From positions 1 to 47,102 of the forward strand of contig JAEUPE010000140.1 of NCBI GenBank assembly GCA_016790435.1: a stretch of DNA of 47,102 nt. The letters are read 5' to 3'. Position 1 is the first letter of the stretch, and each line of letters begins with the position of its first letter. This DNA is from Rubrivivax sp. Its GTDB lineage: Bacteria > Pseudomonadota > Gammaproteobacteria > Burkholderiales > Burkholderiaceae_C. Below the pieces are notes generated by a model that saw nothing but the letters and a program-made list of their open reading frames with translations, was not told where the DNA came from and did no database searches. Shown in pieces: positions 11,952 to 35,842 of this stretch. The position numbers and the translations under genes are program-made.

Positions 11952-12299
11952 CCGGAGCACCGGTCTGCGCCTCCAACATGGCTCGATGCACGGCCCTTCA
12001 GAAGTAGTACTGGCACTGCCCGAGTACTGCATTCGGCATGTGGCGGTACTCGCCCCCCGGGGGACTTCGCCGAACCGTTGCGTCGCAGAGCCCTGACTGC
12101 CAGCACGACGGCCCGGGTACGCGCAGATAACCAAAGCGTAATCAATGCGCTCTGGTAGCCGTCAGCGTGCGGCCCCTAGAGTTGGAACGGTACCACGTGC
12201 TTGCCGCAGGCGCGTTCACGGGCCCGGAAGCGGAACTCACCAAGCCCCAACGGGAACTGATCGCGGCACGCGCCGCACTCCACGCGAAGGAACACACCG
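11952..12299 (+). other. Intergenic region before the cupredoxin operon
   Basis: No convincing gene is visible in these 348 bases. The region contains two AGTACT palindromes about 12 bases apart near 12007-12031 and a CCCCCGGGGG block near 12055. It also holds the candidate metal-response box at 12126-12143, listed separately. The promoter for the cupredoxin gene should lie between that box and 12300. Confidence 0.6.
12126..12143 (+). promoter_or_regulatory. Candidate heavy-metal response regulator box 1
   Basis: The sequence GATAACCAAAGCGTAATC fits GATGAC-N6-GTAATC with one mismatch in the half-sites. It lies 156 bases before the cupredoxin start, in the same orientation to its gene as the three other copies in the window. 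The half-site arrangement resembles CusR/CopR-type boxes. Binding is inferred. Confidence 0.5.
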
Positions 12300-12809
12300 A
12301 TGATCTCGAATCGACGCCGCATCGCCGGCATGCTTGCTGCCCTGGCGTTCGCAGCCTCCGCGGCATGGGCCGGCGGAACACACGGCGACAACCCGGTCGG
12401 CGAGCCCGGCCGTACCGAGCAGGTCACCCGGACCATCAACGTCGACATGACGGACAACATGCGCTTCACGCCGGCCGAGATCTCGGTGCAGCAGGGCGAG
12501 ACGGTCCGTTTCGTGGTCCGCAATTCCGGGGCCGTCAAGCACGAACTCGTGCTGGCCACGCCGGCCGAACTGAAGGAGCACTACGCGATGATGATGAAGA
12601 TGCCCGGCATGGAGCACGCCGACGACAACATGGTCACCGTCGCGCCCGGGCAGACCGGCGAAATCATCTGGCGCTTCACGAAAGCCGGCAAGGTGGACTT
12701 CGCCTGTCTGCAGCCAGGCCACTTCGACGCCGGGATGAAGGGCTTGGTGACCGTCGCGCCGAAGGCGGGTAAGCCCGGGGCCGACGGCCACAGCGGCCAC
12801 AAGCACTAA
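12300..12809 (+). CDS. Periplasmic cupredoxin-domain copper protein
   Basis: A 169-residue secreted protein with a signal peptide (residues 1-24, cut near AWA-GG). The type 1 copper ligands are visible as His81 (KHELV), Cys136 (FACLQPGH), His141 and Met146 (AGM). A Met/His-rich loop, MMMKMPGMEH (about 97-106), and a C-terminal HSGHKH tail could bind extra copper. The protein would carry or buffer copper or electrons in the periplasm. It is followed after 86 bases by a CusF-like gene, and a candidate metal-response box lies upstream. A close paralogue is at 22152-22682, and both share the segment TDNMRFTP. Confidence 0.88.
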   Translation: MISNRRRIAGMLAALAFAASAAWAGGTHGDNPVGEPGRTEQVTRTINVDMTDNMRFTPAEISVQQGETVRFVVRNSGAVKHELVLATPAELKEHYAMMMKMPGMEHADDNMVTVAPGQTGEIIWRFTKAGKVDFACLQPGHFDAGMKGLVTVAPKAGKPGADGHSGHKH

Positions 12810-12895
12810 ATGACGATCGTCACACCGCGGGCGATGACGCACTCGAGCGCACCCTCGAGCCCAGAAGTGCCTGCACAAAACTTGGAGAACCCATC

Positions 12896-13261
12896 ATGAG
12901 AACCCTCAAGCCCACTCTCGTTGCCCTGGCCTTCGCCGCTGCGGCACCCTTCGCGATCACCGCCCACGCCCAGGCCCTGGATCACGGCAAGATGGGTGGC
13001 ATGAACATGCCCGGCATGAAGATAGAGGACATGGGCACCTCGCTGACCGCAGGCGAGGTCCGCAAGATCGACAAGGAAGCCAGGAAGATCACCCTGAAGC
13101 ACGGCGACATCAAGAACCTCGACATGCCGGGGATGACGATGGTGTTCCAGGTGAAGGACGCCGCGCTGCTGGACAAGGTCAAGCCCGGCGACAAGGTGAA
13201 GTTCACGGCCGAGAAGGCCGATGGCGCAATCGCCGTCACGTCGATCGAAGTGCTCAAGTGA
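12896..13261 (+). CDS. CusF-like periplasmic copper-binding protein
   Basis: A 121-residue secreted protein with a signal peptide ending near AHA-QA (residue 25), a Met-rich stretch GKMGGMNMPGMKIEDM and a CusF domain. In CusF the Cu(I) site is His36, Trp44, Met47 and Met49; here the matching positions are His69, Met77, Met80 and Met82 (KHG, then LDMPGMTM). The capping tryptophan is thus replaced by methionine. The protein probably hands copper to an efflux or oxidation system. It lies downstream of the cupredoxin, and a perfect 12-base palindrome, TGACGATCGTCA (12811-12822), sits between the two genes. Two paralogues lie at 20960-21247 and 21296-21637. Confidence 0.88.
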   Translation: MRTLKPTLVALAFAAAAPFAITAHAQALDHGKMGGMNMPGMKIEDMGTSLTAGEVRKIDKEARKITLKHGDIKNLDMPGMTMVFQVKDAALLDKVKPGDKVKFTAEKADGAIAVTSIEVLK

Positions 13262-13350
13262 GGCGACTCACACGCCTGCGGAGCAGCCCGAGTCAAGCAA
13301 GCGCGCCGATCGTGGACGCCACGAAACGCGGACCGACGGGAAGCGGCGCC

Positions 13351-13758
13351 TTATTGCTTCTGCAGGGTGTCAATCAGCGGGCACGACAACTTGCCCCGCC
13401 TCATACGGCAGTCGCGAACGAGGGCGGCCAGCGCCGATTCCATTCGACGTAGATCCTTCAGCTTCTGACGTACATCGGCGAGCTTTGCTTCGGCAAGCCT
13501 TCTCGTCTCGTCACAGTGTGTGCCGTCGTCCAGCTTCAGCAAGCCCGCCACCTCGTCGAGGCTGAAGCCAAGGCGCTGTGCAGCCTTCACGAACCGCACC
13601 CGCGCAACGTCCCTCCCCTCGTAGCGCCGAATGCTGCCGTAGGGCTTGTTCGGCTCCGGCAGCAGCGCGCGTCGCTGGTAGAAGCGCACCGTCTCCACGT
13701 TGACCCCGGCCGCCTTGGCGACGGCCCCGATCGTCATGCCCTGCTGATCGCTGTCCAT
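13351..13758 (-). CDS. merR: MerR, mercury-responsive regulator
   Basis: A 135-residue MerR-family regulator that represses and, with Hg(II), activates the divergent mer genes. The winged helix-turn-helix ([20 protein letters not shown]) is at residues 9-28. The three mercury-binding cysteines are Cys82 (THCDE), Cys117 (RDCRM) and Cys126 (LSCPL), at the same numbers as in Tn501 MerR. I chose the ATG at 13758 over the upstream start at 13818 because the longer form would run through the mer operator and its extra 20 residues do not belong to the family. The gene is divergent from merTPA. Confidence 0.95.
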
Positions 13759-13763
13759 GCCGC

Positions 13764-13794
13764 TTGACTCCGTACATTGGTACGGAATTAAGCT
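13764..13794 (+). promoter_or_regulatory. mer operator-promoter (PmerT)
   Basis: The -35 box TTGACT (13764-13769) and the -10 box TAAGCT (13789-13794) are separated by 19 bases, the over-long spacer typical of MerR-family promoters. Between them lies the perfect dyad TCCGTAC-ATTG-GTACGGA (13769-13786), which closely matches the Tn501/Tn21 MerR site. It drives merTPA to the right and overlaps the merR promoter region. Confidence 0.95.
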
Positions 13795-13830
13795 TACGTC
13801 ATCGTCTCCCCGAAACACCGAGGAAACTGC

Positions 13831-14181: not shown

Positions 14182-14194
14182 CCAGGAGTGCTCC

Positions 14195-14473: not shown

Positions 14474-16282
<1,809 letters not shown>

Positions 16283-17378: not shown

Positions 17379-17424
17379 GCGGTTGTGCAAGGGGTCGTGC
17401 AATCGTTGAAGGGGTGGTTGGGGA

Positions 17425-17661: not shown

Positions 17662-17677
17662 CTCGCACTCCCGGTGT

Positions 17678-18001: not shown

Positions 18002-18040
18002 GTGACGACTCCTCGAGAAGGGTGGCGGCCGGCTGGCGTA

Positions 18041-18328
18041 TCACTGGTTCTTGTGGAACTTCGAGTGGTCGTGGAGCGGCTTGGGCGCCGTCTGGGCCGC
18101 GGAAGCGGAAGCGGCTGGGGCAGCGGGCGGCCGGCACAACACCGACGGTGCGCTCGGCGCATTGCGCTCGGCGCCGTGGTCGTGGCGCCGCATGCTTGGG
18201 CTGCAATTCGTCGGCTGGATAGCTGCGGCGGTCGGCGCCGGCGTGGCAGCGGGAAGGTCCTGCGCGACGACTGCGGCCGAGGAAAGCGCAAGAACTGCTA
18301 ATGATGAGAGGAGAGTGAATGTACGCAT
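18041..18328 (-). CDS. Small secreted protein, Pro/Ala-rich, His-containing tail
   Basis: A 95-residue protein with a signal peptide (MRTFTLLSSLAVLALSSAAVVAQ). The mature part is low-complexity (Pro, Ala, Ser) with CSPSMRRHDHG in the middle and HDHSKFHKNQ at the end. I chose ATG 18328 because the signal peptide starts there. No family is recognised. Position and His content suggest a periplasmic copper-linked role, but that is inference. Confidence 0.6.
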   Translation of the reverse strand: MRTFTLLSSLAVLALSSAAVVAQDLPAATPAPTAAAIQPTNCSPSMRRHDHGAERNAPSAPSVLCRPPAAPAASASAAQTAPKPLHDHSKFHKNQ

Positions 18329-18464
18329 GGCATTGCTCCAGGTGAACAGGTTGAAAGAAGAGGCGAAAACGGCCACCGGTCCGATGCGTGCCCAGCGTGG
18401 GCGCATGACGGCAAACCGGGGCGATGGACGCCACCGCGCTTCCCAGCGCGGGGCGCCGCGGGCG

Positions 18465-18872
18465 CTATAGCGCCAGACGCTGGTAGGCGATACGCAGCGG
18501 GGGACCGCTTCGCCGGTGCGGCGAATCGACTGGCGACCAGCCGCGAGAAGGCGCCCACGACAGTCCAGTCGTCGCGTAGCCCGCGGCGATAACCGGGAAC
18601 GCGGGGTTCGTCGTAGTGTCGTCGGTCAGCTTCAGCTTGGGAGCGCCGATTGATGACTTCTCGCAGAAGTCAAGGCAGTTCGCCTGTCCACGGTCATGGT
18701 CTTCGTCATCGTGATGTGACGAGGCCACCTTGACGACGTCACCGACGGCCGAATGGTGGTGCGTCGACTCGCCGAGCGCACATGCGTGGGCCACCCCCAT
18801 GGCCAAGCCGAACAACCAAACGAGCAGCATCTGGGCTGCCCATCGGCGGAGGTGTCGGCGGTCGCTGAACAT
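18465..18872 (-). CDS. Secreted His/Cys-containing protein of the copper cluster (DUF2946-like)
   Basis: A 135-residue protein with an N-terminal hydrophobic segment (LRRWAAQMLLVWLFGLAMG) and a following ACALGESTHHHS. It also holds SSHHDDEDHDRG and ANCLDFCEKS. His clusters plus a C-x3-C pair resemble the small DUF2946-type proteins found next to copper efflux genes. ATG 18872 was preferred; ATG 18941 would add 23 residues. Function unknown; exposure to the periplasm is likely. Confidence 0.55.
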   Translation of the reverse strand: MFSDRRHLRRWAAQMLLVWLFGLAMGVAHACALGESTHHHSAVGDVVKVASSHHDDEDHDRGQANCLDFCEKSSIGAPKLKLTDDTTTNPAFPVIAAGYATTGLSWAPSRGWSPVDSPHRRSGPPLRIAYQRLAL

Positions 18873-19105
18873 GAAGACGGCGTGTGAAAGGATCTCGCGT
18901 TCGTGCGATTGCAGGATAGAACCTGGCTGCAACGCGTTCATTGATTCGCGTCAACCGCGACTCTGTACCCGACCACGGACTCCGGAGTCTGGCCGCGAGT
19001 CGAAGGCATGCGCGCGCACTGACAAGTCACCAGCTTGGTGCGAGCTGAATCCCAGAAGATCTACCAGTACGGCGCCGGTGCCCCGTCAACTCGAACGGCC
19101 GTTCG

Positions 19106-19489
19106 TCAACGCCGGAGCCTGACGTCGATCCGCACCCGGCTGCTCGACTTGTTGCTCCACATCCAGCAGTAGTCCTCACGGACGGCGACGCGCAAGGTGT
19201 CCTGGCCGGCGCTCACCTGGGCATGTTTGGCCGGGAATTCTGCCGCCTTGCCGACGTGGTAGTGGATGTTGAAGTCCACCGGTGCGGAAGCTTCGAATTC
19301 CCATCGGATGGCGGCACCCGGGTCGAGCTTGCCGCAGACCTCGACGAACTTGCCTGAATCGACGCTGGCACTGTGCACGAATCGCCCATCGGACCCCCAG
19401 GCGATGTCGACGATGTGGCTGGCGGCATCGGCCGGCTGCCCAAGGGCAATGGCAACTGCAGCCGTCAGGGCATACATGTCCTTGTGCAT
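19106..19489 (-). CDS. Secreted GOLD-like beta protein of unknown function
   Basis: A 127-residue protein with a signal peptide (MHKDMYALTAAVAIALGQPADA). The mature part is beta-rich: GKFVEVCGKLDPGAAIRWEF, VDFNIHYHVG, then EDYCWMWSN. This order (core strand, membrane-contact strand, aromatic WMWSN strand) resembles a GOLD/emp24-like fold, but I am not certain. GAGAAGGACCC precedes the ATG at 19489. It lies within the minus-strand copper cluster, behind a small membrane protein gene. Confidence 0.55.
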   Translation of the reverse strand: MHKDMYALTAAVAIALGQPADAASHIVDIAWGSDGRFVHSASVDSGKFVEVCGKLDPGAAIRWEFEASAPVDFNIHYHVGKAAEFPAKHAQVSAGQDTLRVAVREDYCWMWSNKSSSRVRIDVRLRR

Positions 19490-19586
19490 GTCGGGTCCTT
19501 CTCTCGTGGTCGGCAGGAATGGTCGCAAGCGATCGATCGTGCTTCGCATGGAAGCCTCGAGGCAGGCGATCCGGCGTGCGCAAAGA

Positions 19587-19784
19587 TCACCGTCGCTTGC
19601 GTCGTTTGATCTTTACGGGCTTCGTTGAGGCCTGTCGTCCGCCGCCAGGATGCTTGGGGCGGTGCCTCCATCCCAGGAGAAAAGCCAGGCCGACGATGGC
19701 TACGGCGCTCGCCAGACCGCCGACGAGAATCACGCTCAGCGCGTCGTGAGAGAGATTGGGCAGATTCTTGAGCTCGTGTGGCAT
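19587..19784 (-). CDS. Small single-pass membrane protein
   Basis: A 65-residue protein with one hydrophobic segment (about residues 17-38, VILVGGLASAVAIVGLAFLLG) and a strongly basic tail ending KIKRRKRR. It fits the spacing of the minus-strand cluster between the cytochrome c gene and the GOLD-like gene. No family is recognised and it may be a non-conserved peptide. Confidence 0.45.
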   Translation of the reverse strand: MPHELKNLPNLSHDALSVILVGGLASAVAIVGLAFLLGWRHRPKHPGGGRQASTKPVKIKRRKRR

Positions 19785-19906
19785 GGCGTGAGCTCTGCCC
19801 TATCGGGCGGCGCGGCTTTGCGCCCGCACGCAGCGCTCCGCCGCACCACCGCGCCGGAACGTACGTCTGCGCAAGAAAACGGTTCGCATGGGGAGGGCCG
19901 GCCGCC

Positions 19907-20389
19907 TCAGCGCCGCTTCGCCGCGCTGCGGTTCATCTCGTCGTGCTTGGCCCGTATGTCGGCAGGCCACTGGGTCTTGATCCAGGACAGCACGGCGACG
20001 ATTTCCGCATCGCTCAGCACACCTTCGTAGGCAGGCATCGACGACGTGTAGTCCTTCAGCTTGGTGGCCCTCGCGACTCCGAACTTGGTGATCCGGAAGA
20101 GCTGGTCGTCGGCGTGATGCCAAGTGTGGCCACTGGCGTCGTGCGGCGGGGCCGGCAGCCGGCCTGCGGCGTCGCGTTCGCGCCAGTTGGGTTGGCCTTC
20201 GAGCCTGGCGCCATGGCAGTTGGCACAATGGTTTGCATACAGCCGCTGCCCCGAAGCGGCCACGTCGGTGTCGTCGGGCCTCAATTTCGCCCCACCGGAT
20301 CCCGGCGCGAAGGGATCGCCTGCGAGCAGCAACGCAACGATCAGACCCCCGCCAACGGCGGCGACCGTTCGTCGTCGGTTCCACTTCAC
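19907..20389 (-). CDS. Class I c-type cytochrome
   Basis: A 160-residue secreted or anchored protein with one N-terminal hydrophobic segment (residues 8-23). The heme motif CANCHG has Cys55, Cys58 and His59. The likely axial Met118 is in TSSMPAYEG, followed by the C-terminal helix LSDAEIVAVLSWIK. It is a single-heme cytochrome c acting on the periplasmic side. In this cluster it could accept electrons from the multicopper oxidase or cupredoxin partners (inference). It lies 22 bases after the membrane protein gene upstream. Confidence 0.9.
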   Translation of the reverse strand: MKWNRRRTVAAVGGGLIVALLLAGDPFAPGSGGAKLRPDDTDVAASGQRLYANHCANCHGARLEGQPNWRERDAAGRLPAPPHDASGHTWHHADDQLFRITKFGVARATKLKDYTSSMPAYEGVLSDAEIVAVLSWIKTQWPADIRAKHDEMNRSAAKRR

Positions 20390-20411
20390 GCCGTTCCCCC
20401 TCTACGCGCGC

Positions 20412-20963
20412 CTACATCCTCTGGCTCGCCCGAAAGCACTCGCTGGCCGAGTCTCGCGCCAAGCCCCAACTGGCCCGGGCGAGCCACGCCGTGACCGCCG
20501 CAACGAACAAGCACGGCAGCAAGAGGTAGCCCGCGTCGGCACCTCGGAAACCGGCTGCGGCCCCGAATACGAGAAGGGTCCAAAGAAGCGCCTCCGACCA
20601 ACGCCGTGCGTTGTTCAGTTGCACTGCGCTGATGAGGACGCCCGCCACCGCCATGACAGCCAACGACGATGTGGCGTGCTGGTGCGACATGCTCCAAAGG
20701 CCCGCGAAGCCGGACACCACCAACGCGACCAGCGCCAGCGCCGAGATCATCCCGAGCAGACCGGCGACAAGGCACCGCAGCGCTGCGCGCCAACCGTCCA
20801 TGGGTGCCGCAACATCCATTCGCCACAAGAACAGACGGTATGCGGCCGCCGCGGCAGCAGCCAGCAGGACGCATTCGTGCCACGCGAAGCCAGCGGCCGT
20901 GATCGCCGCGACGAGAATGAGGCTTACCAGCCATGCCGCGGAAGTGCCTATCGGAATGCTCAT
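20412..20963 (-). CDS. Integral membrane protein of the copper cluster
   Basis: A 183-residue protein with about five or six membrane segments and few charged residues. Conspicuous residues are His29 and Cys31 (WHECVL) in the second segment region and SMSHQHATS in the middle. Its ATG overlaps the stop of the CusF-like gene upstream (ATGA), so the two are translationally coupled. No family is recognised; a role in copper or electron transfer at the membrane is only suggested by the neighbours. Confidence 0.6.
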   Translation of the reverse strand: MSIPIGTSAAWLVSLILVAAITAAGFAWHECVLLAAAAAAAYRLFLWRMDVAAPMDGWRAALRCLVAGLLGMISALALVALVVSGFAGLWSMSHQHATSSLAVMAVAGVLISAVQLNNARRWSEALLWTLLVFGAAAGFRGADAGYLLLPCLFVAAVTAWLARASWGLARDSASECFRASQRM

Positions 20964-21247
20964 GTCGACTCGATCACAGTGACAACGTACCTATCCCCCT
21001 GGTCGACCGCCTTGAATCGCACCTTGTCGCCTGGCCTCAGCGAATCGAGCAGGATCCAGTCCTTGGTGGCAAACACCATCGTCATCGGCGGCAACGACAG
21101 GCCGGGGACGCCGCCGTGATCCAGCGTGATGCATCCGGCCTCCTTGCCGATCGCGACGACTTCGCCCTCGGCCAGCTCCAAGCGGTCCCGCGCCTGGCGG
21201 GCCTCGGCAGCCCTGACAAGGGCGGCCATCAACTTCTTGCTCAGCAT
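20960..21247 (-). CDS. CusF-domain protein without a clear signal peptide
   Basis: A 95-residue CusF-like protein. The copper-site pattern is His44 (LDHGG) with Leu52, Met55 and Met57 (SLPPMTM), so the CusF tryptophan position holds leucine. The N terminus (MLSKKLMAALVRAAEARQAR) is an amphipathic basic helix and not a normal signal peptide. The protein may be cytoplasmic, or its true start and export may differ. It is coupled by a four-base overlap to the membrane protein downstream and follows another CusF-like gene by 48 bases. Confidence 0.8.
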   Translation of the reverse strand: MLSKKLMAALVRAAEARQARDRLELAEGEVVAIGKEAGCITLDHGGVPGLSLPPMTMVFATKDWILLDSLRPGDKVRFKAVDQGDRYVVTVIEST

Positions 21248-21295
21248 GGCGTGGGGGCCAGCTTCCTGTGCCCGGCGACGCGAAGGTGCTTCCGG

Positions 21296-21637
21296 CTAGC
21301 GCACGACCTGCAGTGCGGTAATCGTGAACTTGCCGTCCTCATTGACCGCCCGGAATTTCACCTTGTCGCCGGCTTTGACCTTGTCGAGCATGGCTTTGTC
21401 GCGCACGACGAAGACCATCGTCATCGCCGGCATGTCCAGACTCTTGATGTCCGCGTGCTTGAGCGTGATCTTGGCCGCCTCGGCGTCAACCTTGCGGACC
21501 TCGCCGTCAGTCATGTCGGTGGCAGCGCCGGCGGCGGCCACTGGATGGTGGCCGGAGTGCTCGTCCGCCTTCTGCTGCGCCTGGGCCGGCGCCGCCATAG
21601 AGATGAGGACAAGAGCGAGGCAAAGCGTGGTCTTCAT
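21296..21637 (-). CDS. CusF-like periplasmic copper-binding protein
   Basis: A 113-residue secreted protein with a signal peptide (cut near AQA-QQ, residue 20) and a His-rich linker (DEHSGHH). Its CusF domain has ligands His61, Met72 and Met74 and Met69 at the tryptophan position (LDMPAMTM). It is very close to the 12896-13261 protein in the domain (TDGEVRKVD and TAGEVRKID; ITLKH in both), which points to duplication. It probably carries Cu(I) in the periplasm. The DUF411 gene lies 18 bases upstream. Confidence 0.88.
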   Translation of the reverse strand: MKTTLCLALVLISMAAPAQAQQKADEHSGHHPVAAAGAATDMTDGEVRKVDAEAAKITLKHADIKSLDMPAMTMVFVVRDKAMLDKVKAGDKVKFRAVNEDGKFTITALQVVR

Positions 21638-21655
21638 GGGGAGTCCTTTCTTGAC

Positions 21656-22177
21656 TCAGCGGTAGGAGCTAAAGATGCGCGTGCTGCCGTCGCGAGCGAC
21701 GAGCAGCACGTCAAACGGATCACGACGAGCCGCGTACTGCGGTCCATCCATTCCCGGCGAGCCCACGGGCATGCCCGGAACGGCCAGTCCGACGGCATCG
21801 GGTGCCTCCTTCAACAGCCGCACCACATCGGCGGCTGGCACATGGCCCTCGATCGCATATCGCCCGACAAGCGCGGTGTGGCAGGAGCCCAGCTTCATCG
21901 GCAACATCAGCCGCTCGCGAACCGCCGTGTTTCCGGTGTCGTGCACCTTGACCCGGAAGCCATGCGCTTGCACGTGATCGATCCAATCCTTGCAGCAGCC
22001 GCAGGTGGGGCTCTTCCAGACCTCCATCGGCACCGGGGCGGGCTGCGCGCGCAACAGGGCCGGAGCGAGAAGCCCGGTCAGGGCTGCCAGTGCGACACCG
22101 CGGCGCGGATGATCGCAGCCCGATTCTGGGGCGGCGAGCGCTGCCGTCCTATCAGTGCTTGTGTCCCGAGTGTCCAT
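21656..22177 (-). CDS. DUF411 family metal-binding protein
   Basis: A 173-residue protein with a hydrophobic signal segment (about residues 27-45, possibly with an upstream Arg pair) followed by the DUF411 domain. That domain opens with VWKSPTCGCCKDWIDHV (Cys59, Cys61, Cys62), then LGSCHTALVG, then EGHVPAADV and PGMPVGSPGM. DUF411 proteins, often named CopG, bind copper through the CxCC-type site and occur in copper clusters. ATG 22177 overlaps the cupredoxin end by 26 bases; ATG 22201 is possible too. Confidence 0.88.
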   Translation of the reverse strand: MDTRDTSTDRTAALAAPESGCDHPRRGVALAALTGLLAPALLRAQPAPVPMEVWKSPTCGCCKDWIDHVQAHGFRVKVHDTGNTAVRERLMLPMKLGSCHTALVGRYAIEGHVPAADVVRLLKEAPDAVGLAVPGMPVGSPGMDGPQYAARRDPFDVLLVARDGSTRIFSSYR

Positions 22178-22682
22178 CACCCGTCGCTCCTGTCGCCGCA
22201 ACGACCTTGATCTTGCCGACCATGCCCGCCTGGTAGTGGCCGGCGATCAGGCATGCGAAGTCGAAGTCGCCCGCCCGATTGAAGTGCCACACGATCTCGC
22301 CGGTCTTGCCCGGCCCGACATGCGCCATGTAGGGTTCGTCGTGCTCCATGTTGGGAAACTTCACCATGAGTGCCGCGTGCTCATCGAGATCCGGCTTGGT
22401 GCCGAGCACGAACTCATGCATCACCTGGCCGGAATTGCGGATGACGAACCTGACCGTCTCTCCCTGACGCACCTCGATTCGATCGGGGGTGAAGCGCATG
22501 TTGTCCGTCATCCCTACTTGGATCACCCTCTTGGCCGCCTTGAGGTCGCCCGCGATGCCCCAGGCCTTCTGCTCCTTCTTGACCGCGCCGGGCTTCTTGC
22601 CGTGGTCTTCGTTGTTGTGTGCCATTGCGGCAGTCCACGCCAGCAGGAGCGCGGCCATGAGCGTGCGTCTGATCGTGTTCAT
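22152..22682 (-). CDS. Periplasmic cupredoxin-domain copper protein
   Basis: A 176-residue secreted protein with a signal peptide (cut near AMA-HN, residue 21). The copper ligands are His89 (MHEFV), Cys144 (FACLIAGH), His149 and Met154 (AGM). The insert LMVKFPNMEHDEPYM and the C-terminal HSGHKH match the paralogue at 12300-12809. ATG 22682 starts the signal peptide; the earlier in-frame ATG at 22733 overlaps the oxidase gene. It lies directly downstream of the multicopper oxidase and may exchange electrons or copper with it. Confidence 0.88.
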   Translation of the reverse strand: MNTIRRTLMAALLLAWTAAMAHNNEDHGKKPGAVKKEQKAWGIAGDLKAAKRVIQVGMTDNMRFTPDRIEVRQGETVRFVIRNSGQVMHEFVLGTKPDLDEHAALMVKFPNMEHDEPYMAHVGPGKTGEIVWHFNRAGDFDFACLIAGHYQAGMVGKIKVVAATGATGDGHSGHKH

Positions 22683-22729
22683 AGGTAGCAGTGCCTTTCT
22701 GGCTGGGGTGAGTGGCAAGAAGTCGGGCT

Positions 22730-24151: not shown

Positions 24152-24177
24152 GAATCGAGTTCCTTGGATCGAATGGG

Positions 24178-25629: not shown

Positions 25630-25641
25630 CCGTGCTTGCCC

Positions 25642-26016
25642 TCAGTTCGACTTGTGACCGCGGTGCCCGCCGGCGGCCGGCGGTGGGGCAGCCGCCGGCT
25701 TTGCCGGCGCTGGTGCCGAGGCGGGAGAGCCGGGTGCGGCTGGCGCGGCTGGTGCTTCAGACTGGCTGGCCTCCCGGGCATAGGCACGCCAGCCGCCGAT
25801 GCGGTTGACCGTTTCGTTGGCCTCTTTCCACGACCCCACCGGCTGTTCCGTGTGTCGTTGGTATTGAGTCAACGTCGACCTGAAGACGACCTGCGGCACG
25901 GCGACGGACGCATTCATCGGGTCGGCCTTGGATCGAGACGTGGTCTGAGCAGCAGCCGTCGTGGCGACAACGACCAAGAGCGCCGGCGCAAGCCGGCTGG
26001 CAATCTTGAAGTTCAT
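25642..26016 (-). CDS. Small secreted protein with Pro/Ala-rich His tail
   Basis: A 124-residue protein with a signal peptide (MNFKIASRLAPALLVVVATTAAAQ). A short folded part contains FRSTLTQYQRHTEQPVGSW and NRIGGWRAYA. A long Ala/Pro linker follows, ending in GGHRGHKSN. ATG 26016 starts the signal peptide. It stops 12 bases before the TolC-family gene and is surely in the same operon. Proteins of this shape often precede the outer membrane factor in copper clusters, but no biochemical role is known to me. Confidence 0.7.
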   Translation of the reverse strand: MNFKIASRLAPALLVVVATTAAAQTTSRSKADPMNASVAVPQVVFRSTLTQYQRHTEQPVGSWKEANETVNRIGGWRAYAREASQSEAPAAPAAPGSPASAPAPAKPAAAPPPAAGGHRGHKSN

Positions 26017-26115
26017 GGGATCCTCGCGAGAACCGGGTCGGTTCCGCACCGGAGAGAGGCGCGGACCGACTGGGGCCGCCGCTGCGGCGCGCTCGAGCGC
26101 CGCAGCGGCGGACGA

Positions 26116-26595
26116 TCAGGCGAGGATCAGCCGGGGCGGTCGATGTGGAACGTCGACGACCACGCCGACAAAGCGCGTGTCCTCGAAGGACAAGCCGCAG
26201 GAACGAAGCTCCGCTCGCGGTACGCGCGCGGGCTCGAAGGCCGGTGCCGCTACGGCGCAGCATGGCGCGCATCCGCTGCACTTCAGCTTGGCCGCCTTAC
26301 CGAAGGACTTCGACGAGTCGACGGCCGATTGCTTCGGCGCGTCATCCTGCATCGGCACGTCAGCCGAGCCTTGGTCAGCCTTGGTGACACCTTGCGAACT
26401 GCCGCCGTGGCCAGAAACCATGGCTCGGCCTCCGTCATGGTGCCCAACGGGCCGCGCGGAGTCGGTAGAAACGGCGGTGGCTTTCGCGCCATGATGCCCA
26501 GGACCACATCCGAGCGTGGTCACGGCTGCCACTCCCTTCAACGGGATGACCGCAGCCATGAACCAGATCAGAAGCAGGCGGGCGACACCACGCAT
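26116..26595 (-). CDS. Secreted Cys/His-containing protein of the copper cluster
   Basis: A 159-residue protein with a hydrophobic N terminus (RLLLIWFMAAVIPLKGVAA), His-rich stretches (CGPGHHGAK, VGHHDGG) and a Cys cluster, LKCSGCAPCCAVAAP (about residues 103-117). The pattern resembles the small periplasmic DUF2946-type proteins of copper clusters. No strong ribosome site precedes ATG 26595. It may bind metal; function otherwise unknown. Confidence 0.55.
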   Translation of the reverse strand: MRGVARLLLIWFMAAVIPLKGVAAVTTLGCGPGHHGAKATAVSTDSARPVGHHDGGRAMVSGHGGSSQGVTKADQGSADVPMQDDAPKQSAVDSSKSFGKAAKLKCSGCAPCCAVAAPAFEPARVPRAELRSCGLSFEDTRFVGVVVDVPHRPPRLILA

Positions 26596-26737: not shown

Positions 26738-27244
26738 TCAGCGATGGCTGTGTCTCAGGTTGGAAGCGCTGCTCTGCTGGCTGCCGCGACTGGGTGCCTG
26801 CGCGGCAGTCGCTGCGCTGCCGGGCGATGCCACTCGGGTGGAGTCATCGGCCGGATAGCCGTAGGCGCGAGCGTTGCCGCCATCGCCGCGGACACCCACA
26901 TACACGGCACCGACCTCACCGCCCACGTTCAGCCAGCCATCGGCCGAAACCGGGTTGCGCCTGGCTTGAATCGCTTCGGCCTGGACTTCGGCGCGCGTAC
27001 GCTGGCTCGGCGCGCCGACATACACCCAACCGGCCTCGCCACCGAGCTCCCGCCAGCCGTAGGCGTTGACCGGATTGCGCTTCCACACCGCCAGCTCGTT
27101 GAGCACGTCGGCGCGCGTCTTGGCCGCCGGCATGGCATGTGACGCGCCGCCGGCCTCGGTCGGCGCGGGCGTGAACCCTGTCGTCGCCAGCACCGGCAAC
27201 GAGACGACGCTCAGCACTGCGATGAGACTCGGACGGAACTTCAT
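26738..27244 (-). CDS. DUF4148-like secreted protein with tandem repeat
   Basis: A 168-residue protein with a signal peptide (cut near VLA-TT). It has two copies of one unit of about 40 residues: TRADVLNELAVWKRNPVNAY...LGGEAGWVYVG and TRAEVQAEAIQARRNPVSAD...VGGEVGAVYVG. The R-A-(D/E)-V-x-x-E-L start of each unit is like the DUF4148 pattern common in Burkholderiales. The tail is Ser/Gln-rich and ends LRHSHR. ATG 27244 has AAGGAGTCC before it. It is the first gene after metal box 2. Confidence 0.65.
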   Translation of the reverse strand: MKFRPSLIAVLSVVSLPVLATTGFTPAPTEAGGASHAMPAAKTRADVLNELAVWKRNPVNAYGWRELGGEAGWVYVGAPSQRTRAEVQAEAIQARRNPVSADGWLNVGGEVGAVYVGVRGDGGNARAYGYPADDSTRVASPGSAATAAQAPSRGSQQSSASNLRHSHR

Positions 27245-27356
27245 GATGGACTCCTTGTGACTCGCGGACCACCTCGTGGGCATCCGCAGGTTGCGATGCT
27301 TGGGTGCACCGTGAGATCACTGTAGGAATCCGCGCCGGACGAGGCGCTTGCGAATC

Positions 27357-27374
27357 GATTACAAGTTCGTCATC
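27357..27374 (-). promoter_or_regulatory. Candidate heavy-metal response regulator box 2
   Basis: The plus strand reads GATTACAAGTTCGTCATC. Read towards the minus-strand copper cluster it is GATGAC-N6-GTAATC, matching both half-sites exactly. It lies 112 bases before ATG 27244. The inner bases (TTACAA, then CGTCA) also resemble the CusR consensus TGACAA-NN-TTGTCA. Regulation is inferred. Confidence 0.6.
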
Positions 27375-27383
27375 ACCATTTGC

Positions 27384-27416: not shown

Positions 27417-27417
27417 G

Positions 27418-28440: not shown

Positions 28441-28506
28441 GCTGTCTCAAATGCTGGGGAAGAGAGGGTGCGCGCGCGCGGCGCGCCCGCGCTCCTTGAC
28501 GAAGCA

Positions 28507-28536: not shown

Positions 28537-28542
28537 CCGTCC

Positions 28543-29580: not shown

Positions 29581-29586
29581 ATGCAT

Positions 29587-30049
29587 TGACTCCGGAGTAG
29601 GACGAGGGAACACCCCACTCCCGAGGTCTCGGCCGGGTTTCTTGCCGCATGGGCAGAGGCGACTCGGGCGGCAGATGACTCGAGAGGTAGAGCGCTGGCC
29701 GCAGCCTAGACACCCAGTCGTCGGGCCACCAGATGACGCTCGGGAAAGAGGGGGGCCGCGCTAGCACCTCCTGCCCAACTTGGGGCAAGGGCGTGTCAAT
29801 CGCCCCACAGCTGCGCTGCTTGAAGGAGCAACTGCCGCGACGTTCGCTGCTGCGACGAACTTGTCACGACGACGGCGCCGGCTCACCGGCGGGCGAGACT
29901 CGAGATGACCGTCCAGTAATGTCTTCGCAAGCGATTGGTCAACCACGCGTTTCTATCGTTCGCTTCGTTCGACAGTGGTGGGCCCCGCTAGCAGTTCCTG
30001 GAACTTCGGCCTGTTGGCGTCGCACCGATGACAAACCAGGGGACGAAAG
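29587..30049 (+). other. Divergent intergenic region between porin and Sel1 gene
   Basis: No gene is supported in these 463 bases. The region serves as the upstream region of both the minus-strand porin and the plus-strand Sel1-repeat gene. It contains metal box 3 (29904-29921) and single GATGAC half-sites near 29732 and 30027. Confidence 0.55.
29904..29921 (+). promoter_or_regulatory. Candidate heavy-metal response regulator box 3
   Basis: GATGACCGTCCAGTAATG matches GATGAC-N6-GTAATC with only the last base changed. It is 128 bases before the Sel1-repeat gene that leads into the first two-component system, in the same orientation as the other boxes. It is also 324 bases from the porin start. 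Confidence 0.5.
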
Positions 30050-31597
30050 ATGCGCAGACAGGACATTCAGCTGCTTTCGAGCGCGCGCCAAGGCGATACG
30101 GTCGCCCGGTGCGAGGTGGCGCGTCGCTACCTGCTGGGCGTGGACGGATTCCCGCGCCACCTCTCGACCGGCCTCGAGTACTTGGCGCATCCATCGATCG
30201 CCGGCACGAGCAAGGCCTCGGCCATCGTTGCCGAGACCCTGCCGCTGCACGAGATCGTTCATCATGATCAGCTTGCTGTGCTTGCGGCTGCGGCACGTGC
30301 CGGCTCGCCAACGGCTCAGGTGAAGTGCGGACTGTGGGCATGTCTCACGAAGCGCGACACGCCCGAGGCACTGGCATGGTTCCGGCTCGCAAGCCAGAGC
30401 GGTGACGTCGCCGCAGGTAACGCGCTGCGATTGCTGAGCCGCTCCTCGAGCGGCGAGCTGCTCGAGGTTCTGCGGGCCCTTGCCGCCTACCCCGGCGTAG
30501 ATCTGCGCGAACTGCTGATGCACGCCATGCGCTGCGCACTGCACGCCCATGATGCCGATCTGCTGGCCGAAGTTCTCGACTGCATGCTCACGCTGCAGCC
30601 GGGAACCCACCCCGTTCTCGCCGACAGCGTGTGCGCCGCGCTGCAGTCTGCACAGAAGATGCCGCGATTCGCTGCAGCCGCTCCTGTCGAGCGGATCGAA
30701 GCGCTTCTCGAGAACTGCGTGCTTCGCGGCAAGGCCGATGCCGCCTTGCTGCTGGGTCGTGCGCTGTGCGGCATCGATCACGGCCCTCTGCGTGCGGTCA
30801 TGCTCGCGACCGCGCAGAACATGCGCAAGGGCGCGGCGCTGCTGCTTCGCGCCGCCGACGCGGGCAAGGACGAGGCGTGGATGCACCTCTATCGTGTTCA
30901 CGCCGACAGTCGGACTTCGGTGGCCAATCCGCAGATGGCTCGCTTCTTCCTCGAGAAGGCGGCCGTCCGCGGCAATGTCGAGGCCCAGCGTCGACTGGGC
31001 GCGCTGACGTTGCGCTCCGCGAGCACGTTGCACGAGTCCGAGCAGGGTATCCACTGGCTGCACCAGGCGGCTCAGCATGGCGACACCAACGCTGCTCGGT
31101 TGCTAGGCTCACTGGTGCTGAAGGTGCCGGGCCTCGACAGCGATGCGGCTATCGTGATCGAGTCCATCCGCCGCGAAGACCCGTGGATGGCCTGCAGACT
31201 TCGGACGGCCCGTGACTTCGGCCTGACGAAACTGGAGGGTCTGAGCGTGGACGTCATCGCCGGGAAGCGCCCTTGGGGGCTGGTGGTCGGGCCGAACCCG
31301 TTTATTGCACAGGTCAAGCTGTCGGCGCCGCGCGCGATTCCGGCCCTGACCGAGGAAGCGGCGCTGAATCTGCGCCGCAGCGCGTCATTCTTCGAGCAGG
31401 CCCGCGAGAGCGGATCGCCGCTCGAAGGGGACCTGCGCAAGCGCTCGGTCAGGCTTCGTCGCCTGTTGGAGCACCATGGCGGCGACGACTCGATGTTCTT
31501 CGCCGAAGCCAGGAGCACGACTCTGGAGATGCTGCGCCTGGGCACGAAGTGGGCGTTTCATGAGAGGCAGCCGCTTCGTGTGGCGCTGGCCGCCTAG
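30050..31597 (+). CDS. Sel1-like repeat (TPR-related) protein
   Basis: A 515-residue, mostly helical protein without a signal peptide. Sel1-type units are visible: GSPTAQVKCGLWACLTKRDTPEA, then GNVEAQRRLGALTLRSAST...WLHQAAQHGDTNAARLLGSLV and others between residues 80 and 370. Such repeats scaffold protein interactions. The last 130 residues (from about 385) are a separate unrecognised helical part. ATG 30050 has AGGGGACGAAAG before it. The gene is 63 bases before the response regulator and may be cotranscribed with it, an unusual companion for a metal-sensing system. Confidence 0.7.
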   Translation: MRRQDIQLLSSARQGDTVARCEVARRYLLGVDGFPRHLSTGLEYLAHPSIAGTSKASAIVAETLPLHEIVHHDQLAVLAAAARAGSPTAQVKCGLWACLTKRDTPEALAWFRLASQSGDVAAGNALRLLSRSSSGELLEVLRALAAYPGVDLRELLMHAMRCALHAHDADLLAEVLDCMLTLQPGTHPVLADSVCAALQSAQKMPRFAAAAPVERIEALLENCVLRGKADAALLLGRALCGIDHGPLRAVMLATAQNMRKGAALLLRAADAGKDEAWMHLYRVHADSRTSVANPQMARFFLEKAAVRGNVEAQRRLGALTLRSASTLHESEQGIHWLHQAAQHGDTNAARLLGSLVLKVPGLDSDAAIVIESIRREDPWMACRLRTARDFGLTKLEGLSVDVIAGKRPWGLVVGPNPFIAQVKLSAPRAIPALTEEAALNLRRSASFFEQARESGSPLEGDLRKRSVRLRRLLEHHGGDDSMFFAEARSTTLEMLRLGTKWAFHERQPLRVALAA

Positions 31598-31660
31598 CCG
31601 ACGCCTGGCCGTTGCGACGGTGGGGCCGCACCTGAAAGCCGACCACGCCCTGAACAACCG

Positions 31661-32368
31661 ATGGCGATGCGAATCCTGGTCGTCGAAGACAACCTCAAGC
31701 TCGCCGGCCACCTGCGCCGCGGGCTTGTGGAGAACGGATTCGCCGTCGATCTTGCGGCCGATGGCATCGAGGGGCGCCGTCTGGCCCTGCAAGGCGAGTA
31801 CGACCTGGTCCTGTTGGACGTCATGCTGCCGGGTCTCGACGGCTTCGCGCTGCTGCAGGCGCTTCGCCACCACAAGGAAACGCCGGTCCTCATGCTAACC
31901 GCCGCAGACAGCGTGCAAGACCGCGTGCGCGGCCTGCACGCCGGCGCCGACGACTACCTCGTCAAGCCCTTCGTCTTCATGGAGCTGTTGGCCCGAATCC
32001 AGGCTGTATTGCGCCGCGGTGGCTCCGCTTCGCATCACGAGCCCGACCGCATGGTGCTGGGCGATCTCGAACTCGACCTGACCCGCCGCCGCGCGCAACG
32101 CGCCGGGGTCCGGCTGGAACTCACGGCGCAGGAGTACACGCTGCTTTCGGTGCTGCTTCGGCACCGCGGTGAGGTACTTTCGCGCGCGGAACTCACCGAG
32201 CAGGTCTGGGACATGAGTTTCGATGGCGACTCCAACGTGGTCGAAGTGGCGATCCGGCGCCTTCGCGCCAAGCTCGACGACCCCTACCCCCGGAAGTTGC
32301 TGCACACCGTTCGCGGCATGGGCTATGTGCTGGAACTGGAACCGCACGCCGAGCGACACCTGCGATGA
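31661..32368 (+). CDS. OmpR-family response regulator, heavy-metal type
   Basis: A 235-residue regulator. The receiver domain has Glu9-Asp10, phospho-acceptor Asp53 (LLDVMLPG) and Lys102 (VKPF). The C-terminal winged helix includes LTAQEYTLLSVLLRHRGEVLSR and VVEVAIRRLRAKLD, ending with RGMGYVLE. This is the CopR/CusR/IrlR type that answers copper or other metals. It overlaps the kinase start by four bases (ATGA), so the pair is coupled. ATG 31661 or 31667 could be the start. Confidence 0.88.
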   Translation: MAMRILVVEDNLKLAGHLRRGLVENGFAVDLAADGIEGRRLALQGEYDLVLLDVMLPGLDGFALLQALRHHKETPVLMLTAADSVQDRVRGLHAGADDYLVKPFVFMELLARIQAVLRRGGSASHHEPDRMVLGDLELDLTRRRAQRAGVRLELTAQEYTLLSVLLRHRGEVLSRAELTEQVWDMSFDGDSNVVEVAIRRLRAKLDDPYPRKLLHTVRGMGYVLELEPHAERHLR

Positions 32369-33720
32369 GCTGCCGCGCGCGATCCATCGCCGCCCGGTTG
32401 ACCCTTGGGCTCGGGCTCATCGCCCTCCTCGTCTTCACGGCAGCCGGTGCCCTCTTGCAGGGTGCCTTTGAACGCGATCTGGTGGCCGCCGATGAGGCCA
32501 CGCTGAGTGGCAAGATCCGCGTTGTGCTGCACTTCATCGACGAAGCCACGCGATCAGGTGACGCCAGCGGGCTGCGCCATCATCTGGATGATCTGCGGAT
32601 TGGCCATGAAGGCTTGCATGTGTGGCTGGTGTCGGCCACGGGGCAGCCGATCTATGGAGATCAGGCGCTTTCCGCCGTTGCCTCGGCCCAGGTCCAGGAA
32701 GTCATTCTGCCGACGTCGTCACTTTGGCCCTCAGGAGTGCTTCGGGTCGCGCAGGACACGGGGCCGCGCGACGATCTGCTGGGCAGGCATCTGATGACCT
32801 TGGTGGCGGTGTGCGCAACCGGCGTGGCAGCCATGGTGGCGCTCAGCTGGCTTGCCATCCGTCGGTGCCTGCGGGTCGTGAGCCGGCTGTCGGGCGAGGC
32901 CGCCTCCATCACACCCCGGTCCCTCGGCATGCGCCTGACCGTGCCTGCGGAGGGTGTCGAGTTGAACGGCCTCGTGCGCGCCTTCAACGATGTGCTCGAC
33001 CGGCTCGAGGAGGCCTATGCGCAGATGAAGGCATTCAACGCCAACGTCGCGCACGAGCTGCGCACGCCCTTGGCCTCGCTGGCCACCGGGGCCCAGGTCG
33101 CCTTGGCCTCGCCTCGATCGAACGAGGAGTTGCGCGAGGCACTCATATCGAATCTGGAAGAGCTCGAACTGCTGAACAGCCTTGTCAGCGACATGCTGTT
33201 CCTGTCACGCGCCGACCAGGGCGATCGCGCCGAGGGTCTGGAGAAGGTGGAACTGGGGTCCGAGGCGGACAAAGCGATTCGCTACTGCGAAGCCATGCTG
33301 CACGAATCCGATCTGGTCGCCGACCGGGTTGGCGAAGCCCCGGCCTTGTGCAACGGCCCGCTGATTCGACGGGCGATCGTCAACCTGCTCACCAATGCCA
33401 TCCGGCATACCCAGGCAAAGGGCCGACTTCGTCTGTGCATCGATGCCTCGACGGAGTCCGTGCGCCTATGGGTGGGCAACCCGGGGGAGCCCCTCGCTCA
33501 TCACGTGCGGGCGCAGATGTTCGATCGCTTCTACCGCGGCGATGCCTCGCGATCGCGCCACCAGCCCGGCCACGGACTCGGCCTGGCGATCGTTGCCGCG
33601 ATTGCGCGCATGCATGGGGGAACGGTGTTTGTCGTCCATGCCGACGGCGAGAACCGGGTGGGTTTCACGCTGCCGACACTCGTCGCCGACGCGAGTTCGG
33701 ACGGACCGCCACCGGCATGA
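32365..33720 (+). CDS. Heavy-metal sensor histidine kinase (CusS-like)
   Basis: A 451-residue kinase. A first membrane helix lies at about residues 11-32, a periplasmic sensor of about 110 residues follows, and a second helix lies at 144-164, then a HAMP linker. The HisKA box is [11 protein letters not shown] with His230. The ATPase domain shows NLLTNAIRHT (N box), RFYRGDASR and [18 protein letters not shown]. The architecture matches CusS/CopS kinases that sense periplasmic copper or silver. It is translated with the regulator in front. It ends 19 bases from the end of the opposing kinase at 33740. Confidence 0.9.
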   Translation: MSCRARSIAARLTLGLGLIALLVFTAAGALLQGAFERDLVAADEATLSGKIRVVLHFIDEATRSGDASGLRHHLDDLRIGHEGLHVWLVSATGQPIYGDQALSAVASAQVQEVILPTSSLWPSGVLRVAQDTGPRDDLLGRHLMTLVAVCATGVAAMVALSWLAIRRCLRVVSRLSGEAASITPRSLGMRLTVPAEGVELNGLVRAFNDVLDRLEEAYAQMKAFNANVAHELRTPLASLATGAQVALASPRSNEELREALISNLEELELLNSLVSDMLFLSRADQGDRAEGLEKVELGSEADKAIRYCEAMLHESDLVADRVGEAPALCNGPLIRRAIVNLLTNAIRHTQAKGRLRLCIDASTESVRLWVGNPGEPLAHHVRAQMFDRFYRGDASRSRHQPGHGLGLAIVAAIARMHGGTVFVVHADGENRVGFTLPTLVADASSDGPPPA

Positions 33721-33739
33721 GCGCGGCCATCACCGGGCG

Positions 33740-35107
33740 CTACGCGAAAGGCTCGGCCGATGGCACGTGCAAGCCGATCGACGTGACCCCACGATCGGAC
33801 TGAGCGAACGGCTCGCCACGATGCATGCGGGCAATCGCCGCAACGATCGCCAATCCGAGGCCATAGTTGGCGCCGGACCGCCGCCGAGATCGATCCACTC
33901 GGTAGAAGCGATCGAACAGCTTTGGAAGGTGTTCCGCGTCGATCAGCGGGCCTTCATTGACCACCGAGATCCTCACCTGACCCGGCAACGCCTCGATCTG
34001 CACCCTGACCACCGACCCCGGCGTTGCGTACCGCGTCGCATTGCTGAGCAGGTTCGAGAGGGCGCGCCTGATCAGCGAAATGTCGAACAGCCCTGCCGCA
34101 TCGCCTTGGCAGACCGCCGTCAGATTGCGCTCAAGCAACGCAGCCTCGTGATAGTCGACGATCTCGTGCAAAGCGGCGCACAGGCTGTCGACCCTCTCGC
34201 GCCGCGCGGGCGCACCACGATCGGCCTGGGAGAGAAAGAGCATGTCGTTCACGATGACGGCCAGCCGCCTCAGGTCTTCCAGGTTGGCGGCAATCACCTC
34301 GCGCAATTCGTCGGCGGGACGATCACGCTGCAACGCCAACTCGCTCGAGCCGATCAGCGTGGTCAACGGAGTGCGAAGTTCGTGCGCCACGTCGGCATTG
34401 AAGCCCTCGAGTTGCGCGTAGGCCTGCTCCACGCGTGTCAGCAGGTCGTTGAACCGCTGAACCAGTGGCGTCAACTCCTGCGGTTGACCCGATCCATCCA
34501 GGCGCAGCCCGGCTCGGTCGAGTGCCATCGACTCGACCTGCGACGACAACCGACGCACAGGGCGAAGGCCCCGAGCCACGAGCATGTACCCCGTGACGCC
34601 GACGATTCCGGCACCGGCGAGCGAAGCCACGACCAAGGTGACTCCGAGGCGCCACAACAACGCGTCGTCGCGGCCAACATCCAGCGTGAGGTCCACCATC
34701 ACCCGACCTACGGGACTCGACGGCCAGGTGTCCTGCCAATGGATGGCTCTGAGTCGCGCGTCGTTGGACGACACCCGACGGGTCCGGGCCGGCGCGAAGA
34801 GGACCTGCCCAGCTAAGGTTCTGACCGTCAGCGCCATGTCCTCGTGCCCGACCAGGAAGTCATCGAGCTTGTGTCGGAGTTCGGTCAAGTCGGCCGCCTC
34901 CGCGGTCTCGGACAGCGCGTGTCGGATGACGTCCGTCTTGACTTGGAGCTCTTCCTTCTGCCGGCTTTGCAGGACCCAGTAGCTGACTGCGATCACGGTG
35001 GTGGACACCAGCAGGGCCACCAGCAGGCCCTGAAGCGCCAACCAGGTCGACAGCCGCCGACCGACCGAGGGTGCGCGCCTCCCGGGCCCGTGGGCAGGCG
35101 GGCTCAC
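33740..35107 (-). CDS. Heavy-metal sensor histidine kinase (CusS-like), second copy
   Basis: A 455-residue kinase with helices at about 24-46 and 154-176, a periplasmic sensor between them, and a HAMP linker. The HisKA box is [11 protein letters not shown] with His242; the N box is [10 protein letters not shown], with [13 protein letters not shown] and [14 protein letters not shown] following. I chose the GTG at 35107, which overlaps the regulator stop (GTGA), because the longer frame runs deep into the regulator gene. The sensor domain shares the HHLDDLRIGHEG-like pattern ([12 protein letters not shown]) with the first kinase, so the two are paralogues. Confidence 0.88.
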
Positions 35108-35790
35108 TCTTGCCGCCGCTCCAGCACGTAGCCCATGCCGCGCACCGTGTGCAGCAACTTGGACTCGAACGGCTCGTCGAGTTTGCTGCGCAGTCGCCGC
35201 ACGGCCACCTCGACGACATTCGTGTCGCTGTCGAAGTTGATGTCCCACACCTGCTCCGCGAGCACGGTGCGCGTCAGCACTTCCCCGCGGCGGCGCAATA
35301 GAAGGACGAGGAGGTTGAATTCCTTGGGCGTGAGTTCCAGGCGCTTGCCGGCGCGCGTGGCCCTGCGGCGAGCGAGGTCCACCTCCAGATCGTCCAATCG
35401 GAGGAGGGTGGCCCCCTGGGAGTCGCCTCCGGAAGCGCCTCGCCGAAGCAGCGCCTGAACGCGGGCAAGGAGCTCGGAGAAGGAGAACGGCTTGCCCAGG
35501 TAGTCGTCCGCGCCTTCGGTCAGCCCTTTCACCCGGTCTTCGACCGCGTCGCGCGCGGTCAACATCAGGACCGGTGTCTTGCGCCTCGACCGCAGCGAGG
35601 CCAAGACCTCGAAGCCGTCTTTGCCCGGAAGCATCACATCCAGAATGACGAGGTCGTAGCTTCCTTCGACTGCGAAGTGGAGCCCGTCGATGCCGTCGTG
35701 CGCCAAGTCGACCACATATCCGCTCTCCGACAGCCCCTTTCGCAGGTAGTCTGCCAGCCTCACTTCATCTTCGACAACGAGGATTCGCAT
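35104..35790 (-). CDS. OmpR-family response regulator, heavy-metal type, second copy
   Basis: A 228-residue regulator with phospho-acceptor Asp51 (ILDVMLPG) and Lys100 (LGKPF). The winged helix carries [22 protein letters not shown] and [17 protein letters not shown], ending [12 protein letters not shown]. It belongs to the CopR/CzcR/IrlR group and is a close paralogue of the 31661-32368 regulator. It is coupled to the kinase by a four-base overlap. Metal box 4 lies 34 bases before its ATG, which fits autoregulation. Confidence 0.9.
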
Positions 35791-35824
35791 TCCCGCGATT
35801 CTGTGCCATGGACTGTCGGCCGAG

Positions 35825-35842
35825 GATTACGGTTTGGTCATC
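35825..35842 (-). promoter_or_regulatory. Candidate heavy-metal response regulator box 4
   Basis: The plus strand reads GATTACGGTTTGGTCATC. Towards the regulator gene it is GATGAC-N6-GTAATC, an exact match to both half-sites. It differs from box 2 in only four of 18 positions, all within the spacer. It is 34 bases before the response regulator start and so probably overlaps its promoter. Confidence 0.6.

Follow-up and report, generated by a model that had tools for sequence, protein, structure and literature searches.

Predicted CusR/CopR-type operators in a fixed promoter register precede copper genes and two sensor systems in a Rubrivivax genome

We analyzed a stretch of 47,102 nucleotides (nt) of Rubrivivax sp. 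(assembly GCA_016790435.1, contig JAEUPE010000140.1, positions 1 to 47,102 of the forward strand; below, the window), in which four 18-bp sequences, boxes 1–4, precede, respectively, cupredoxin and CusF genes, a large copper cluster, an operon of a Sel1-repeat protein with a two-component system, and the gene of a second response regulator. Judged by their sequence, the boxes are real, functional-looking examples of the known CusR/CopR-type operator. Very probably they serve as operators for response regulators of the heavy-metal subfamily (CusR/CopR/AgrR type), the likeliest candidates being the two encoded in the window, RR1 and RR2, which would act in a two-register mechanism. Directly established are the sequence, position, promoter register, and genome distribution of the boxes, and their recurrence in some relatives and in two characterized systems.

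The original prediction described the boxes by the 18-bp pattern GATGAC-N6-GTAATC, and our motif search of the window recovered all four with the coordinates, strands, and mismatch levels it had given: GATGACgaacttGTAATC (box 2) and GATGACcaaaccGTAATC (box 4) have no mismatches, GATAACcaaagcGTAATC (box 1) and GATGACcgtccaGTAATG (box 3) have one each. With at most one mismatch, the pattern occurs four times in the window vs. a mean of 0.095 and a maximum of two in 200 dinucleotide shuffles; each of the 15 other spacers (0 to 15) yields at most one match. A feature missed earlier is that the boxes form an imperfect palindrome, GATKAC-N6-GTMATC, with the 16-bp core ATKAC-N6-GTMAT. Scored as 16-bp inverted repeats whose halves, ATKAC and GTMAT, are separated by 6 bp, boxes 2, 3, and 4 are exact, and box 1 has one mismatch. 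The middle six bases vary among the four boxes; boxes 2 and 3 have TTCGCAAGCG directly past the box in common, and the same −10 register.

The claimed common direction is also seen: read towards the downstream gene, the GTAAT half is gene-proximal in four of four boxes, and the same holds, towards the presumed target, for the boxes of this genome with unlike halves (boxes 1–4 and those on contigs C50 and C258). Since the site is an imperfect palindrome, this is a weak asymmetry; the opposite strand also matches at 27357 and 35825, with two mismatches each. A strict direction was rejected, as family genome L167 has two boxes with ATTAC distal, GTCAT proximal, and TACAGT 33 nt past the core. The proposal that the consensus is particular to this locus did not survive either. 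It is contradicted by the footprinted AgrR box of Cupriavidus metallidurans NA4, a 16-bp imperfect inverted repeat, ATKACANNNNTGTMAT, to which the window boxes are close (available text of PMC7380067), and by the Escherichia coli CusR/HprR box, CATTACAAAATTGTAATG, which they match (available text of PMC9302797).

The draft genome (5.39 Mb), of which the window is contig C32, is 80.8% complete, and regulon members may be missing from it; genes outside the window come from our own open reading frame calls with a simple codon-position score. The exact core occurs at 15 places: four on C32 (boxes 2, 3, and 4, and a copy inside merA at 14618, missed in the original prediction), five on contig C152, and one each on C3, C50, C115, C172, C258, and C275. 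C32 and C152 make up 1.9% of the genome and hold nine of these places (P = 1.5e-12), one of the nine, in merA, being coding; without the three window boxes that prompted the motif, they hold six of 12 (P = 4e-8). In a spacer control with ATGACN{0,14}GTMAT, among the 56 places listed, which cover all but the last few of 105 oriented rows, 15 have N6 and each other spacer has at most eight; the stricter GATGACN{0,14}GTMATC gives five places at N6 and at most two at any other spacer. Equal frequency inside coding regions, named by the original prediction as an outcome that would speak against it, was not observed: a gene start follows downstream of 12 of the 15 exact cores, and the remaining three (merA, C172, and C275) fall within coding frames.

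Contig C152 looks like a second metal cluster. It encodes a heavy-metal response regulator and two CopK proteins, tested by family search (as were DUF4148, DUF3141, and the response regulators of this genome), and two CBA-type efflux pumps, a multicopper oxidase, and a DUF411 protein, named, like its cytochrome, by eye. Its five exact boxes face the two CopK genes, a DUF3141 gene, a cytochrome c gene, and the gene of a small secreted protein that precedes an efflux pump. The C50 and C115 cores lie upstream of DUF4148 genes, and the C258 core upstream of another heavy-metal response regulator. An exact core is found directly upstream of three of the seven DUF4148 genes of the genome and of two of the four response regulators over the TIGR01387 cut-off; for RR1 the core lies before the Sel1 gene, with which its presumed operon begins.

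Promoter offsets were counted from the 16-bp core to the first base of a −10-like hexamer, and offsets 5 to 59 were scored. TANNNT is present at exactly +33 in eight of the 30 oriented genomic cores, and the other 54 offsets have two hits altogether. The +33 hexamers are TACAGT (box 2), TATCGT (box 3), TAGCGT (C3), and, in five of five C152 cores, TAGCCT, TAGACT (twice), and TAGAGT (twice). The position is fixed, at +33 for boxes 2 and 3, +34 for box 1, and +22 for box 4, with C50 and C115 as misfits; the merA-internal core has no TANNNT at +33. The concentration of the core in metal clusters and the fixed register support the earlier claim that regulatory boxes of the CusR/CopR kind stand before the copper genes and both two-component systems.

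Two further observations concern boxes outside the window. Those on C115, C258, and C50 (L003, L005, L014) have a common GTTCGG stretch directly past the box and no −10 at +33; in C258 this stretch is on the side facing away from its response regulator. The C3 core (L118, 1501–2107), with its TAGCGT at +33, precedes the gene of a small secreted protein and adjoins a MerR-type regulator gene; the protein consists of repeated VPLSGVPMREATVRLGYDR-like units and has no Pfam match.

Table 1. Boxes, −10-like hexamers, and genes in the window (coordinates are those of the window).
Feature	Position	Strand	Remarks
Box 1 GATAACCAAAGCGTAATC	12126..12143	+	precedes cupredoxin/CusF genes; 1 mismatch to core
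−10-like TAGAGT	12177..12182	+	34 nt past box 1 core
Cupredoxin	12300..12809	+	Copper-bind, Cupredoxin_1
CusF-like periplasmic copper-binding protein	12896..13261	+	CusF_Ec
Remaining copper cluster, presumed operon	18041..26595	-	family searches; members in the text
DUF4148 small protein, opens copper cluster	26738..27283	-	PF13663, 38 bits (26741–27283), gathering cut-off 27
−10-like TACAGT	27319..27324	-	exactly 33 nt past box 2 core
Box 2 GATGACGAACTTGTAATC	27357..27374	-	precedes leftward copper cluster; core exact
Box 3 GATGACCGTCCAGTAATG	29904..29921	+	precedes Sel1-RR1-HK1; core exact
−10-like TATCGT	29954..29959	+	exactly 33 nt past box 3 core
Sel1-repeat protein, first gene of presumed operon	30050..31597	+	PF08238
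Response regulator RR1, heavy-metal subfamily	31661..32368	+	TIGR01387, 294.3 bits, cut-off 279.2
Heavy-metal sensor kinase HK1	32365..33720	+	TIGR01386, 349.2 bits, cut-off 292.55
Heavy-metal sensor kinase HK2	33740..35248	-	TIGR01386, 341.2 bits, cut-off 292.55
Response regulator RR2, heavy-metal subfamily	35104..35790	-	TIGR01387, 326.9 bits, cut-off 279.2
−10-like CAGAAT	35798..35803	-	22 nt past box 4 core
Box 4 GATGACCAAACCGTAATC	35825..35842	-	precedes RR2; core exact

Family searches reproduced the gene content of the original prediction, i.e., cupredoxin and CusF; the copper cluster; Sel1, response regulator, and kinase; and the second response regulator and kinase (Table 1). Beyond its DUF4148 gene, the copper cluster encodes an OEP outer-membrane protein, a multicopper oxidase (a Pfam match, under the TIGR01480 cut-off), a cupredoxin, a DUF411 protein, two CusF-like proteins, a cytochrome c, and small proteins without a family. 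The long open reading frame of HK2 overlaps RR2, and the real start is probably further inside. The mer operon between boxes 1 and 2, in which MerR, MerT, and MerA were identified by family search and MerP by eye, has its own MerR and is for this reason excluded from the box-controlled set. When 24 kb of the window were searched against plasmids, 2500 records matched, the best 20 of these 2500 in the merA part only. A large protein at 9270–11951 has WD40-like repeats and, as read from its sequence, a possible TIR-like N-terminal part.

The distance between the centre of box 4 and the first base of the RR2 ATG is 43.5 bp, and AgrR's own box is centred around −43.5 from its start site (available text of PMC7380067). 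This likeness, together with the −10 at +22, predicts that RR2 transcription starts on the ATG or right beside it (window 35790), and, by the position of box and −10, the RR2 mRNA is probably leaderless. Three relatives of RR2 (L038, L040, and L083) have an exact box 34–35 nt before the ATG; in L038 and L040, TAGAGT is present at +33 on the opposite strand as well, and in L083 one base nearer. There, one box seems to serve two divergent promoters. On the far side of box 4 in the window no such divergent −10 is found; this side faces an integrase gene and a tRNA, which suggests that the edge of an island replaces the divergent operon. The tyrosine recombinase (integrase) gene and the tRNA adjoin RR2 at window 36063–37506; an RNA family search of the window gave one tRNA at curated thresholds. 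The closest relative of RR2 is the RR2 of a Rubrivivax metagenome-assembled genome (84%).

From these observations we infer binding, metal specificity, operon extents, start sites, and cross-regulation as follows. A sensor kinase would detect copper (or silver), and the regulator would then bind the 16-bp palindrome as a dimer and bring RNA polymerase to promoters whose −10 resembles TANNNT. In effector operons the −10 would begin 33–34 nt past the core, the box centre being about −53 to −56 from the start; for RR2 the −10 would begin 22 nt past the core, with the box centre at about −43. The two registers would thus differ by 11 bp, approximately one helical turn, and that of RR2 would provide positive autoregulation, probably via a leaderless mRNA. 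The two sensor pairs probably cross-regulate each other, since both carry the box and their regulators have a common DNA-recognition stretch. This stretch, F-D-x-D/E-x-N-V-V/I, which we take to be the recognition helix, is nearly identical in RR1, RR2, the C258 and C152 regulators, and the pMOL30 regulator. Both RR1 (251.9 bits) and RR2 (277.5 bits) are under the 420-bit cut-off of the CusR equivalog NF007346 and hence are not assigned to CusR proper.

A single cross-wired circuit of both sensor systems is plausible. It is also possible, though we hold it to be clearly less probable than not, that these known CusR/CopR-type boxes are split into two insulated circuits, one of RR1 and one of RR2, perhaps for different metals, with no single regulon. 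C. metallidurans AgrR left the prsQ1 region unbound at concentrations that bind other targets (available text of PMC7380067). RR1 and RR2 are 65% identical, RR1 has the lower family score (294 vs. 327 bits), and the boxes differ in their middle six bases. Against such insulation, the recognition-helix stretches of the two regulators are nearly alike, and box 3, before RR1, has both its register and TTCGCAAGCG past the box in common with box 2; moreover, E. coli CusR and HprR are reported to have one common recognition sequence (available text of PMC9302797). That the boxes answer chiefly to a metal other than copper (silver, zinc/cadmium) is improbable: TIGR01387 and TIGR01386 are indeed named for zinc/cadmium, silver, and copper systems, and AgrR is tied to silver resistance and binds czc promoters too (available text of PMC7380067), but the box-bearing operons encode cupredoxins, CusF proteins, and a multicopper oxidase, and C152 two CopK proteins. 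Meaningless chance palindromes, which could explain the three coding cores and the background-like cores of other family genomes, are contradicted by the shuffles, the spacer control, the fixed −10 register, and the metal-cluster concentration in this genome, and we give them practically no credence.

Outside this genome, the box and its register recur in some relatives. At least one exact core is present in 59 of the 60 family genomes (the Rubrivivax genome included), in which response regulator, kinase, pump, and porin genes were named by eye. In four stretches with close-lying boxes, TANNNT is at +33, in one direction, in seven of nine exact cores; these stretches were chosen for their close-lying boxes, a choice that favours the boxes being operators. 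G003 has TACAGT before a DUF4148 gene adjoining a response regulator and a kinase, and a second core without it; G052 has four cores with TACAGT and one without; in G022 two cores have TAGACT, one of them before an efflux operon. Among 80 relatives of RR2, taken from named genomes, the fetched flank contains an exact core in five.

Several results weigh against the boxes being operators in a fixed register. Within 300 nt upstream of the regulator gene, three of the 80 RR2 relatives have an exact core and four more a core with one mismatch; the Pseudomonas loci among them have no exact core in the fetched flank. In 30 loci from the 60 family genomes, with 62 oriented cores, TANNNT is at +33 in two, at +32 in two, and nine times at other offsets (10–54); because +33 is not favoured there, most exact cores in these loci look like background. 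When C32 and C152 are set aside, the Rubrivivax genome has a weak N6 excess (six places, P = 0.08), hence the genome-wide signal comes mainly from the two metal clusters. Box 1 combines a core mismatch with a −10 shifted by one base, C258 has a weak −10, GAGGAT, at +22, a good −10 at +33 is lacking for the DUF4148 boxes of C50 and C115, and the heavy-metal response regulator of C152 has no exact core upstream. A 30-kb stretch of pMOL30 has no exact core, and its 66 oriented sites with at most two mismatches give two hits at +33, the same as at +17 and +42. Finally, of the inner A...T of the AgrR half-sites (ATKACA...TGTMAT), boxes 1, 3, and 4 have neither base and box 2 the T only; as the pair is mostly missing, we assign the boxes to a wider operator type rather than to AgrR boxes proper.

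The rare Sel1–response regulator–kinase operon under a common box is the only part of the locus that strikes us as unusual. At an E-value of 1e-30, the Sel1 protein matches in two of the 399 genomes of the order, its own and one other. The latter has two Sel1 copies (L170, L171), and, as in the window, a porin-like gene diverges from each; both copies are preceded by a degenerate core (one and two mismatches) with TANNNT at +33, and one is followed by a response regulator-like gene, while a simple string test found none for the other. Speculatively, and with the odds clearly against it, Sel1-RR1-HK1 may be a three-part metal sensor, in which a Sel1 partner is added to a CopRS-type pair and slaved to the copper regulator via box 3. 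The role of such a partner has an analogy in ExoR, a Sel1 protein that acts on ChvGI. Literature searches on Sel1 with copper two-component operons and on "cop box" names brought up no recognized case of this arrangement among the matches listed, which does not establish its absence from print.

The Sel1-RR1-HK1 operon is divergent from porin genes. Apart from box 3, the sites with up to three mismatches that were considered as a box for the porin promoter (29614–30049, minus strand) have two or three, none with a −10 at +33; in view of this lack of a suitable box, the porins are excluded from the box-controlled set.

As an instance of the CusR/CopR operator with its promoter register, the locus confirms and extends what is known and offers no new principle. 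Through the box plus a −10 at +33, DUF4148, CopK, and DUF3141 proteins, a cytochrome c, and the sensor operon with Sel1 are linked to the metal response, so that functions open to testing can be proposed for genes of no known role; the available text of PMC13037405, on DUF4148 and copper, contains no motif or binding site. Since E. coli cusC, pMOL30 copA, and the present GC-rich genome have the operator and its register in common, this combination makes a sharper search rule than the box by itself.

Of the characterized systems, that of AgrR is similar in several respects. Its targets, namely agrR itself, a small CopQ-like periplasmic protein, cop genes, and a porin (available text of PMC7380067), match those of the window in kind; its box is likewise a 16-bp imperfect inverted repeat with stronger conservation of the promoter-proximal half, and the autoregulation box, around −43.5, is placed like box 4 relative to the RR2 ATG. 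Differences are that three window promoters have their box about 10 bp upstream of the −43.5 position seen at agrR, and that AgrR binding was footprinted, whereas the window boxes are known from sequence comparison. A 78-aa pMOL30 protein, taken as CopQ by gene order, has no Pfam match, and the name DUF4148 does not occur in the available text of PMC7380067.

The E. coli CusR/HprR box, reported as one recognition sequence for both regulators, fits ATKAC-N6-GTMAT, as do the window boxes (available text of PMC9302797). We found one exact core, ATGACAATTTTGTCAT, between cusR and cusC; TAAAGT is at +33 on its cusC side and TACTCT at +32 on its cusR side. The gene set differs from that of the window, and the window regulators are under the CusR equivalog cut-off. 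In the cop1 cluster of pMOL30 of C. metallidurans CH34, a motif is located approximately 50 bp upstream of most cop start sites, including that of copR1, and the copA start site, 191,243, was checked by 5' rapid amplification of cDNA ends (available text of PMC7563307). The copA box, CTGTCCGGAATGTAAT, has TACTCT at +33 and is centred 55.5 bp upstream of this start site; although it is two mismatches off the core, box and −10 stand in the same register as in the window.

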